In this document: in pieces, positions 9,246 to 49,482 of the stretch | Numbering within the stretch: the stretch's first letter is position 1 | Layout of the letters: every line of letters starts with the position of its first letter | From: Timonella senegalensis JC301 | GTDB taxonomy: Bacteria; Actinomycetota; Actinomycetes; Actinomycetales; Cellulomonadaceae | Direction: 5' to 3' | Assembly (NCBI RefSeq): GCF_000312125.1 | Contig: NZ_HE978644.1 | Location: 262,510-326,509, forward strand | DNA: 64,000 bases | Program-made: the position numbers and the translations under genes | Notes under the pieces: model-generated | Told to the model about the DNA's origin: nothing | What the model saw: only the letters and a program-made list of their open reading frames with translations | The model's database searches: none

Positions 9246-9307
9246 CATCGAGAGTATTCCTGCGCCCACTCTCGACGTCGAGAGTGGGCGCAGGAATACT
9301 CTCGATG
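9246..9307. repeat. 62-bp perfect palindrome, family A copy 2
   Basis: Perfect mirror symmetry about ACGT at 9275-9278. It has the same outer arm (ATCGAGAGTATTC) and core (CCCACTCTCGACGTCGAGAGTGGG) as the other copies and differs in the middle of the arm (CTGCG in place of TCTAG or CTGAG). It starts 13 bases after the ABC operon stop and could serve as its terminator, although no U-run follows. GGGCGAGGTTC follows it, as it also does after copy 3. Confidence 0.95.
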
Positions 9308-9763: not shown

Positions 9764-12592
9764 ATGCACACCCAAGAACTCCAAAAGCGACGGACCATCA
9801 GTGCCGGAGCTGAGCGCCTCATCGGCGTCAAAGCAGCGAGGCGAGCGGTAGGGGCGGTCTCCGCTCTCACGCTCGCGATTCTCGCGATCTACCCGGGTGC
9901 GCCCGGTTCGGCCTATGCAGCCACTTTGACTACTGCTGCGAAGCCTCCTGTGGCAGCGCAAGCCAGTGTGACTGTCTCGGCCCCTTCAACTGGCGTACTC
10001 CCCAACAGCCAGATCGCGAAATCGGCACCCGCAGGTGTCAATGGTTCAGATGTCATTCTGAACCTCTTCCAATGGAACTGGGTCTCAGTGGCTAAGGAAT
10101 GTCCAAGTCTCGGTGCTTCAGGGTACGGGTATGTCCAGGTCTCACCTCCTCAAGAACACATCATTGGCTCCCAATGGTGGACGAGCTATCAGCCGGTGAG
10201 TTACCGCATCGAATCCAAGTTGGGTACACAAGAACAGTTCTCGGCGATGGTCTCCGCATGTGCGGATGCCGGCGTAGGAATTATTGCGGATGCTGTCATT
10301 AACCACATGACAGGCCAAGTGACCTCGGGTGTTGGTTGGGCGGGAACCGACTACGACCTTGAGAGTTATCCCGGTCCCGACGGTCGGTACAGTGCCGAGA
10401 ATTTTCACGAGTGCAAGTCAGACATCGGCAACTACAACGACCGCGATGAAGTGCAGAACTGCAGACTTGTGGGCCTGCAGGATCTGGACACCAGCTCGGA
10501 GTACGTGCGGTCTGAGATCGCAGCGTACCTAGACCACCTAGCAGGTCTTGGGGTTAAGGGTTTCAGGATCGACGCGGCCAAGCACATGGCGGCTGCGGAT
10601 ATCGCCGCAATCAAGGCTGCGACGACTTCCGCCAAGGACCTGTACTGGGTCCACGAGGTCATCGGCTCTGCGTCTGAGCCCATCAAGACCTCCGAGTACA
10701 CCGGCATTGGGGATGTGCACGAGTTCAACTACGCCCGCGGCCTGAAGTCCGCCTTCGATGGATCGATTTCACGGCTCCAATACGTTGGTACCGGCTGGAG
10801 CCTGCTGGCATCCTCACATGCGGGCGTGTTCGTGGATAATCATGACACTGAGCGCAACGGCGAGACCATGAACTACAAGTGGGGCGCCAAGTACAAGCTT
10901 GGCAACATGTTCATGCTGTCATATCCGTACGGTTCGCCGTCTATTTACAGCGGCTACGAGTTTGAAGAGCGCGACGCTGGCGCGCCGCAAGACGCCAACG
11001 GGCTTATCGACGATGTTGCTTGCTCGAGTGGTGCCTTTACCTGCCAGCATCGCAGCCCTGAAATTAAGAACATGGTTGGCTTCCACAATCTTGTTGCTGG
11101 AACCACAATTAACAACTGGCAGAACGTCTCCAACAACTTTGTGGGTTATGGAAGAGGCAATAAGGGATTTGTTGCACTCAACAACACCGCACACACCGAG
11201 AACTACACCTTTGCAACTCGTCTTCCAGCGGGCACCTACTGCAATATTGTTTCTAACTCGGAGTTGAGTGGATGCGTTCAAGACATTGAGGTCACAGCGG
11301 ATGGTCGAGCCAGTGTCACGGTTGAGCCGTACTCGGGCATCGCGATCGACATCGACCATGCGACTCTTACCGGGGAAAACCCACAGGAGAACGCGGGCAC
11401 CACAACAGTCTTCTATCCCGCGGAGGTATTCGGTGAGGACTCGACTTACATCCACCACGGGGCAATACCGGGTTGGACCGCAGTTCCCGGAGTCAAAATG
11501 CAGCCGTCAGTATGTGAGGGCTGGGTCAGTGCTGAGATTCAGAATGAGGGTCCTTTTGAGGCCGTGTTCAATGACGGCGGAAGTCGCTGGGATAACCCAT
11601 CATCCGGAGGCAACTATGTCCTAGACGGCAACATTGCGACAGTTAAGGACAAGACAGTGTTTGGGACCTTGCCGTGTGACCCTGATTCGTTCCGGAACAC
11701 GGTGGTGTACTACGCCACCAATGGAGAGTGGGAGAACTACAACGTCCATTTCGAGGCTGGAATGGCCGGCTGGACCACTCCTCCGGGCAAACCCATGTCT
11801 CCCGCCTGCACGGGTTGGGTAAAGCGCACCATTCAGGTTGATGGCGAAGGCTTAACGCTCACGTTCAATGACGGCACGAGTTGGGACAACAATGGCGGCG
11901 CCAACTACTCAGCCTTTGGTCCAATCGTGTCCGTCTCGGACGGAGTTATTGGGGACACAAACCCGTGCGCTGGTCAGGAGGAAAGCGAAGAACTCCCAGA
12001 CACGGATATCGAAACTCCGACATTCGAGTTTGACGTGCTTGAGATCTACTACGCTGCCGACAAGGGGTGGCCAAAATACATGATCCACTACGGGTCCGGT
12101 AGCGAGTGGACTGCTGTGCCTGGTGTAGAGATGGACACCGTGACCTGTGAAGGTTGGGCTACCTTCTCGATTGCGAACGCTAAGAACGTGATGCTCACGT
12201 TTAACGATGGAGCTGAGGTCTGGGACTCGAATAACGGCGCAAACTACGCTGCTACGCACCAGACCATGACATTCTCAGGCGGCTCTGTAACGCACGAAAA
12301 CCCCTGCCTAGGCGGATCGGATGGTGGCACTGGTACTGATGGTGGTACTGGTACTGGTACTGATGGTGGCACTGGTACTGACGGCAACTCCGACTCAAAC
12401 GGTCCAGGTGGGGAAGGGGCTGATGGTAGCGCTGGCCCTGGCGGATCTGATGCAGAGCAGGGCGACGAGGTCCTCGCTGAAACGGGTGTCAGCATTGCCG
12501 GCGCCCTGGAGATGGCATTTGGAGCACTTGTCGCGTGCGGACTCATTGCGGTGGGGGCAGTAGCGGTACGGCGCGCCTCCCAACGGGTGTAG
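9764..12592 (+). CDS. Secreted, wall-anchored GH13 alpha-amylase with three starch-binding-like modules
   Basis: A 942-residue extracellular enzyme that hydrolyses alpha-1,4-glucan. It starts at ATG 9764 with GAGGAG spacing; an ATG at 9752 is possible. The N-terminal signal region (ALTLAILAIYP...AYAA) is followed by a GH13 catalytic domain (about residues 80-450). The nucleophile is Asp270 in GFRIDAAKH, the acid/base Glu298 in HEVIG, and the transition-state Asp361 in VDNHDTERN. After a beta domain come three repeats of a CBM25/26-like module, each with a TVFYPA/VVYYAT/EIYYAA strand, a GWTAVPG or GWTTPPG motif and FNDG...WDNN. A Gly/Thr/Asp linker then leads to LAETG (904-908), a membrane helix and an RRASQR tail. 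LAETG is the class-E sortase pentapeptide. This implies surface starch use. Confidence 0.93.
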   Translation: MHTQELQKRRTISAGAERLIGVKAARRAVGAVSALTLAILAIYPGAPGSAYAATLTTAAKPPVAAQASVTVSAPSTGVLPNSQIAKSAPAGVNGSDVILNLFQWNWVSVAKECPSLGASGYGYVQVSPPQEHIIGSQWWTSYQPVSYRIESKLGTQEQFSAMVSACADAGVGIIADAVINHMTGQVTSGVGWAGTDYDLESYPGPDGRYSAENFHECKSDIGNYNDRDEVQNCRLVGLQDLDTSSEYVRSEIAAYLDHLAGLGVKGFRIDAAKHMAAADIAAIKAATTSAKDLYWVHEVIGSASEPIKTSEYTGIGDVHEFNYARGLKSAFDGSISRLQYVGTGWSLLASSHAGVFVDNHDTERNGETMNYKWGAKYKLGNMFMLSYPYGSPSIYSGYEFEERDAGAPQDANGLIDDVACSSGAFTCQHRSPEIKNMVGFHNLVAGTTINNWQNVSNNFVGYGRGNKGFVALNNTAHTENYTFATRLPAGTYCNIVSNSELSGCVQDIEVTADGRASVTVEPYSGIAIDIDHATLTGENPQENAGTTTVFYPAEVFGEDSTYIHHGAIPGWTAVPGVKMQPSVCEGWVSAEIQNEGPFEAVFNDGGSRWDNPSSGGNYVLDGNIATVKDKTVFGTLPCDPDSFRNTVVYYATNGEWENYNVHFEAGMAGWTTPPGKPMSPACTGWVKRTIQVDGEGLTLTFNDGTSWDNNGGANYSAFGPIVSVSDGVIGDTNPCAGQEESEELPDTDIETPTFEFDVLEIYYAADKGWPKYMIHYGSGSEWTAVPGVEMDTVTCEGWATFSIANAKNVMLTFNDGAEVWDSNNGANYAATHQTMTFSGGSVTHENPCLGGSDGGTGTDGGTGTGTDGGTGTDGNSDSNGPGGEGADGSAGPGGSDAEQGDEVLAETGVSIAGALEMAFGALVACGLIAVGAVAVRRASQRV

Positions 12593-12822: not shown

Positions 12823-12881
12823 ATCGAGAGTATTCCTGAGCCCACTCTCGACGTCGAGAGAGGGCCAGGAATACTCTCGAT
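12823..12881. repeat. Family A palindrome copy 3 (imperfect)
   Basis: The same outer arms (ATCGAGAGTATTC and its mirror) and centre (CTCTCGACGTCGAGAG) are kept, but the right inner arm reads AGGGCC where symmetry needs GTGGGCTC. This copy has therefore decayed by a base deletion and substitutions. It is followed by GGGAACGGGCGAGGTTC, resembling the flank of copy 2. Confidence 0.9.
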
Positions 12882-13066: not shown

Positions 13067-13126
13067 ATCGAACGGATGATTATCGATCCGTTCGACACCG
13101 AACGGATCGATAATCATCCGTTCGAT
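13067..13126. repeat. 60-bp nested inverted repeat, family B, just upstream of mazG
   Basis: Two perfect 28-base arms are separated by ACAC (13095-13098). Each arm is itself an inverted repeat, CGAACGGAT-GATTATCG-ATCCGTTCG, so the nine-mer occurs four times in alternating orientation. This is the same four-part architecture as family A with a different sequence. It ends 15 bases before the mazG ATG and abuts its ribosome-binding site (GAAGGGAG), so it lies in the 5' leader or promoter of mazG. Confidence 0.93.
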
Positions 13127-13141
13127 GGAAGGGAGTGGGTC

Positions 13142-13972
13142 ATGCGGGGCAGGAGCCGAGGGCCAGCGGGCGTGAGGGACAATGAGAGGGTGACCAAGAT
13201 CGTCGAGAATCAGGGCCAGGACCAGCCGCAGGGTGGCGCCGCAGATCAGGGGCAGGAGTGTGCCGCAGGGCAGGGCCAGGACCAGCCGCAAGGTGGTGCC
13301 GCAGAACAGCGCAGGCTAGCGGGCATTGCCCGCGCAATCACGGTGATGGACCGCTTGCGGTCCCCGGGAGGATGTCCTTGGGACATCGAACAGACCCACG
13401 AATCGCTGGTGAAGTACCTGCTTGAGGAGTCGTACGAACTCGCTGATGCGGTGGACAACAACGACCGCGAGAACCTGCGCGAGGAGCTGGGAGACGTGCT
13501 GCTCCAGGTCCTATTCCACGCGAGGATCGCGCAGGAACACCCCACCGACCCCTTCACCTTTGACGATGTTGCGGGTGATTTAGCGGCCAAGCTCGAGTTC
13601 CGTCACCCGCACGTGTTTTCTGACGTCACGGTCTCAGGACCCGAGGAAGTCACAAAAAACTGGGCTGAACTCAAGAAACAGGAGAAGGGCCGGGAATCGG
13701 TTTTTGACGGGATTCCACTGGCACAAGGCGCACTATCACGCGCCCAGAAGGTGCTTGGCCGGGCCGCGCGGGATGAACGGATCGTGAACGCACTGGAAGT
13801 TGCGTCAGAAAACGTAGACAATAGAACCGACGCGGAAAAAATCGGATTTGAACTGCTCGAAATCGTGCGGCGCGCCGCACGTCTGGGCATCGACGCCGAA
13901 GGCGCGCTTCGCCAGACACTGACCAGTGTGGAAGGAAGTGCCCGCCGCGCCGAGGCGGAACTGACCGACTAA
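13142..13972 (+). CDS. mazG: Nucleoside triphosphate pyrophosphohydrolase MazG
   Basis: A 276-residue NTP pyrophosphohydrolase that hydrolyses (d)NTPs, including non-canonical ones, to NMP and PPi. The MazG core is clear: VMDRLRSPGGCPWDIEQTHESL, then the metal-binding EESYELADA, REELGDVLLQVLFHA and a second all-alpha segment near the C-terminus. The first 50 or so residues are an actinobacterial low-complexity extension with two copies of QGQDQPQGGAA encoded by near-identical DNA repeats (13210-13306). The start is ATG 13142 with GAAGGGAG. It precedes eno, a common actinobacterial order. Confidence 0.93.
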   Translation: MRGRSRGPAGVRDNERVTKIVENQGQDQPQGGAADQGQECAAGQGQDQPQGGAAEQRRLAGIARAITVMDRLRSPGGCPWDIEQTHESLVKYLLEESYELADAVDNNDRENLREELGDVLLQVLFHARIAQEHPTDPFTFDDVAGDLAAKLEFRHPHVFSDVTVSGPEEVTKNWAELKKQEKGRESVFDGIPLAQGALSRAQKVLGRAARDERIVNALEVASENVDNRTDAEKIGFELLEIVRRAARLGIDAEGALRQTLTSVEGSARRAEAELTD

Positions 13973-49418: not shown

Positions 49419-49482
49419 CCATCGAGAGTATTCCTGAGCCCACTCTCGACGTCGAGAGTGGGCTCAGGAATACTCTCGATGG
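49419..49482. repeat. 64-bp perfect palindrome, family A copy 4
   Basis: Perfect about ACGT at 49449-49452; arms begin CCATCGAGAGTATTCCTGAG. It lies 54 bases after the crcB stop. The sequence is nearly the undamaged version of copy 3, with CTGAG in the variable arm section. Confidence 0.95.

Follow-up and report, generated by a model that had tools for sequence, protein, structure and literature searches.

REPINs are doublets of REP sequences that form hairpins (PMC3116915). REPs tagged with GTAG or CGTC are palindromes of 20-40 bp that are often found as inverted dimers and sometimes as heterodimers; some families lie within C-rich/G-rich palindromes (e.g. T. roseum GTAG-23), and the CGTC REPs are without a dedicated transposase (PMC3733652). 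The name actinobacteria is absent from the main text of that paper. Rickettsia palindromic elements (RPEs) are approximately 150 bp long, and nearly half of them lie in genes (reviewed in PMC10969869). The 60-bp palindrome upstream of mazG in the window (the whole stretch of DNA analysed, 64,000 nt) is one copy of a dispersed repeat of about 60 bp and not a feature specific to mazG. It is probably a copy of a REPIN-like miniature hairpin element that was once, or still is, mobile. The palindrome (here assigned to family B) and its immediate surroundings are laid out as follows.

13067-13126, no strand assigned: family B doublet, two 26-bp palindromic units in inverted orientation, with an AT/AT extension
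13069-13094, plus strand: B unit 1, CGAACGGAT GATTATCG ATCCGTTCG, with 9-bp arms and an asymmetric 8-nt centre
13095-13098, no strand assigned: spacer ACAC, 4 nt, constant in length in families A and B
13099-13124, minus strand: B unit 2, which is unit 1 inverted
13127-13141, no strand assigned: G/A-rich right flank GGAAGGGAGTGGGTC
13142-13972, plus strand: mazG open reading frame from ATG, with an alternative start at GTG 13190 (Pfam MazG, E-value: 1.1e-28)
13190-13213, plus strand: copy of the family C motif, GTGACCAAGATCGTCGAGAATCAG, overlapping the alternative mazG start

The inverted arms are perfect, as the preliminary description claimed: positions 13067-13094 and 13099-13126, 28 nt each, are 100% complementary across a 4-nt gap. 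The 60-mer reads AT-CGAACGGAT-GATTATCG-ATCCGTTCG-ACAC-CGAACGGAT-CGATAATC-ATCCGTTCG-AT, and each 28-nt arm thus consists of AT plus a 26-bp unit that can itself form a hairpin. Folded as a single DNA strand, the 60-mer has an energy of -35.1 kcal/mol (shuffled: -11.6 +/- 2.2; z -10.7), and the palindrome is far beyond chance. This copy is the sole B doublet without any mismatch and is therefore atypical; a G.G mismatch adjacent to the 4-nt loop is usual, being present in 18 of 21 distinct B pairs.

A genome search for CGAACGGAT...ATCCGTTCG pairs, proposed in the preliminary description, returned 27 strict matches, with none for the reversed control. When up to three mismatches were allowed, family B gave 71 strand-hits genome-wide, corresponding to approximately 30 loci. 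A search with the unit of the second family, family A (CGAGAGTATTCCTGAGCCCACTCTCG), gave 82 matches at 46 loci. The window contains four family A doublets, none with an assigned strand.

1902-1961: family A doublet of subfamily CGAGAGTATTCTCTAGCCCACTCTCG, with AA/TT ends
9246-9307: family A doublet
12823-12881: family A doublet in the gap that separates mazG from the amylase gene; the first unit is exact (12825-12850) and the second is degenerate, with a 1-nt deletion
49419-49482: family A doublet

The nested architecture attributed to both families is exact: 26-bp units are set in a 30-bp register (26+4+26). Only the ends of the A and B units are similar (CAT-CGA...TCG-ATG), and the rest of the sequence looks unrelated. 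Units occur singly, in pairs or, in family A, as one triplet, always in the 30-bp register; the pairs are mostly inverted, with some direct (e.g. contig positions C2:35165 and C3:87147). When only the frame was searched for (CATCGA-N20-TCG-N4-CGA-N20-TCGATG), the matches in this genome were mainly A and B elements; the others were one further A-like variant (C1:386292) and a small number of chance sites. Of the 297 genomes searched in the order, only this one has the pattern as a repeat; elsewhere there are isolated single sites, one of which (in genome G324) is palindromic. Family B was not found in the 59 relatives searched, and no exact A or B unit was found in the GTDB genomes or IMG/VR, collections which may omit this genome or very near ones. 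A literature search found, with the terms tried, no papers on such repeats in actinobacteria.

Gene contexts were taken from codon-composition gene calls on the stretches around the copies. On this basis 75 of the 76 A and B loci lie outside called genes: 42 in gaps between same-strand genes, 18 in convergent gaps, 11 in divergent gaps and four at contig ends. The distance from element to gene ranges from approximately 0 to more than 1,000 bp, and nothing ties the copies in general to ribosome-binding sites. It is very improbable that the elements are terminators or hairpins of 3' mRNA ends that resemble one another by chance. Such hairpins would be stable, as these are, and in same-strand gene pairs about 26 of 41 elements stand closer to the stop codon of the upstream gene; however, 11 of about 71 separate divergent genes, a position that calls for no terminator, the gap before mazG has no terminator-like site with a T tract, and terminator function does not explain the identity among copies. 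Given the divergent copies and the missing T tract, termination was rejected as a general role.

The flanks of the elements have a shared composition. Read toward the element, both are C/T-rich and G-poor for approximately 16 nt. In most copies CAT follows, its three letters being conserved at 85, 93 and 98% in B. The right-side flank therefore reads as a G-rich purine tract. The flanks of different copies are otherwise unrelated, and the element boundaries are sharp at CAT/ATG. In a flank-to-flank BLAST comparison, flanks were shared only by the contig-end (rRNA-type) copies, one copy at an assembly gap, family C motifs, the composite discussed below and two neighbouring copies near a terminator-like repeat. 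Insertion into pre-existing hairpins, to which the C-rich left and G-rich right flanks had pointed, was considered and rejected, as pairing between left and right flanks (6.16) shows no excess over shuffled flanks (6.31).

Most elements of the genome have such a G-rich flank on their right, and the apparent mazG ribosome-binding site, GGAAGGGAGTGGG, may simply be that flank. The palindrome had been described as ending 15 nt before the mazG ATG; the distance to ATG 13142 is correct, but that start is itself unsettled, as the composition-based gene model places the start at GTG 13190. MazG homologues match the open reading frame only from about residue 26-50 after GTG 13190. A scan of the gap for sigma-70-type sites gave no promoter match, and an Rfam scan of the window found nothing beyond one tRNA. 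Upstream, positions 9764-12592 probably encode a secreted alpha-amylase. It has several modules for starch binding (CBM25 and CBM26/53 matches), a linker rich in Gly and Asp and, close to the C terminus, a hydrophobic stretch. The genome with the closest MazG (G014) has its own paired hairpin repeat, approximately GGGTCCGTTGATCGRCACCA, directly upstream of mazG (L084:1382-1434). That repeat is unrelated in sequence, gives 24 strand-hits with up to three mismatches and has several other copies close behind stop codons.

Which fold has been kept can be read from 54 doublets (32 A and 22 B). Two-sided compensatory changes occupy 15 cells in family A and 11 in family B, numbers reached by 0 of 200 shuffles. 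They cluster in the centre columns, which are the loops of the short hairpins and are paired only in the long hairpin; the short hairpins have one compensatory cell, in B, which is at chance level. The long fold (-50.1 kcal/mol) is favoured over two short hairpins (-27.8 kcal/mol) by approximately 22 kcal/mol. Because both the compensatory changes and the energies favour it, the long palindrome is what was maintained or repaired, and arm-to-arm template-switch repair would yield the same covariation signal without selection. The preliminary description had suggested a bistable RNA switch, in which mazG translation would depend on whether one long hairpin or two short ones form. The perfect arms 15 nt before ATG 13142 and an RNA z-score of -9.4 are in keeping with this, but we give the switch almost no credence given that energy gap, the confinement of covariation to the long hairpin, the presence of the element at about 75 further loci in all contexts, the uncertain mazG start and the lack of a sigma-70-type promoter match in the gap. 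The other role suggested, an operator for mazG, is unlikely, as copies stand in every gene context and from 0 to more than 1,000 bp from genes.

Besides the flanks that differ from copy to copy, two cases bear on movement. The first is a composite in which a B doublet, 17 nt and an A doublet follow one another; it is nearly identical at C2:98506 and, inverted, at C3:426415. The strong similarity ends at TCAT/ATGG, and the flanks of the two sites are unrelated. With a B end on one outer side and an A end on the other, the composite suggests that one machinery handled both families; an origin by recombination is possible but needs more steps. Together with the common frame and the similar ends, this two-site composite supports the earlier proposal that architecture shared without shared sequence reflects a common generating mechanism. 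The second case is a B doublet at C1:683366-683421, which lies in frame within a HelD-like gene, where it is read as SIERMIIDPSDAQRIDNHPFD (closest solved structure of the protein: 6yxu, RNA polymerase-associated HelD, E-value: 3e-79). The segment of the protein concerned has 83 residues here, whereas all 13 homologues compared, taken from other genomes of the family, have 60. The element lies within these 23 additional residues and encodes about 20 of them in frame, which leaves 2-3 residues unaccounted for. The protein alignment at this one site thus points to an insertion into the gene. No target-site duplication is visible at the elements. The flanking AT/AT is self-complementary, and the AA...TT variants favour an extension of the palindrome over a target-site duplication.

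The A and B loci are concentrated near dnaA: the region within 250 kb of it (C1:560000-1059241) makes up 16.6% of the genome and holds 32 of the 76 loci (binomial p 1.3e-7). Family C is a third dispersed motif, with the core ATCGTCGNNAATC and an extended form of approximately GCTGGGAGGTGACCACGATCGTCGAAAATCAG. It has 100 matches with up to one mismatch in the 259 kb of loci read, about half of them within genes, and 154 exact matches to GATCGTCGNNAATC genome-wide (reversed control: 0). In its spread over coding and non-coding DNA it recalls, by analogy, uptake sequences, Chi-like sites or REP-type sequences. Near dnaA family C is also in excess, though less strongly (42 of 154; raw counts in both cases). 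Because this unrelated family is denser there too, the bias of A and B may reflect local intergenic space.

This distribution also bears on the possibility that the elements are bound by a protein that organises the chromosome or acts as a global regulator (as sites of matS, parS or Noc type, or double operators for a dimer), and that they spread and were retained through this binding. The excess near dnaA would fit such a role, as would the strong conservation of the unit, which includes the asymmetric B centre GATTAT, and the constant 30-bp register of about three helical turns. We nevertheless consider it unlikely: two proteins would be required for two unrelated sequences of the same geometry, a coding gene contains one of the copies, position relative to genes is inconsistent, recent copying could explain the conservation equally well, and family C shares the density near dnaA.

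Four contig ends carry degenerate family A doublets: L076, L077 and L078 (the starts of C4, C2 and C3) and L079 (the end of C5). The doublets adjoin a common stretch, GTGTGGGTGCCCTCTTTTTTTATGCCCACACACG, in at least C2, C3 and C5, and the C2 copy has one recognisable unit. The assembly probably broke here at the ends of rRNA operons.

How a miniature mobile hairpin of this kind might multiply can be pictured as follows. The replicating form would be the long hairpin, either single-stranded or as a cruciform, and a putative trans-acting enzyme would read the ends CAT-CGA...TCG-ATG of both families in their C-rich/G-rich surroundings. Owing to the nested build, each arm (9 bp in B and 7 bp in A) is also a direct repeat at 30-bp spacing, which would permit slippage by 30-bp steps that adds or removes units. 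Such slippage would account for the occurrence of single, double and triple units in the same register. The two halves would be kept matched by arm-to-arm template correction or by selection on the hairpin. Adjacency to mazG would be incidental, and any effect on mazG, such as a stable hairpin in the leader might have if the element is transcribed, would be secondary.

The enzyme of the REP systems does not appear to be present. No match to Y1_Tnp/RAYT (PF01797, which covers IS200/RAYT transposases) was found in this 99.96% complete genome, a search that a very divergent HUH protein may escape; the same search found the domain in E. coli and four other genomes. REPs driven by a RAYT were rejected on this result. 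The genes read in the element-dense clusters look ordinary and include no obvious transposase. It is a tentative and somewhat doubtful suggestion that a putative RAYT-independent enzyme mobilises the doublets through their ends and geometry (CAT-CGA, 26+4+26) and not through internal sequence, with one machinery serving both families.

Compared with the systems described above, the A and B elements resemble REPINs in that short palindromes are paired in inverted orientation across a short spacer and occur extragenically in many copies; they are likewise predicted to form a single hairpin in single-stranded DNA, and doublets are over-represented (PMC3116915). The inverted arrangement, short spacer and one hairpin are found in the 54 doublets. 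They differ in that no cognate RAYT/Y1 transposase was found, that single B units are conserved as well as doublets, and that one exact frame and similar ends are common to two families of unrelated sequence. The palindrome size (26-bp units), many extragenic copies (75 of 76 loci intergenic), inverted dimers, heterodimers, C-rich/G-rich setting and the lack of a transposase seen in CGTC REPs recall the tagged REPs. However, the flank consensus is CAT on both sides, with no columns corresponding to an unpaired GTAG or CGTC end, the loops are 8-12 nt and the host is actinobacterial. The dispersed palindrome and its in-frame insertion in a protein gene (here HelD-like) are shared with the RPEs, although only 1 of 76 loci here is in a gene. 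As in MITEs, the elements are short, non-coding and dispersed with terminal inverted repeats, but no target-site duplication is seen, the element is almost wholly inverted repeat and the clusters read hold no obvious transposase. Because two tested features, the GTAG/CGTC tag and the RAYT, are lacking, the A and B elements are a REPIN-like variant and not members of the REPINs or REPs.

With these results the tempting reading of a mazG switch, being unsupported, is removed. The spread of REP-like palindromes without a RAYT is an open question, which PMC3733652 raised for the CGTC REPs. In this genome there are two families of unrelated sequence in one frame, a composite with one end of each and an in-frame insertion that can be set against 13 uninserted homologues. 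They allow a direct test, in a host free of RAYTs, of which ends and which geometry the mobiliser uses.
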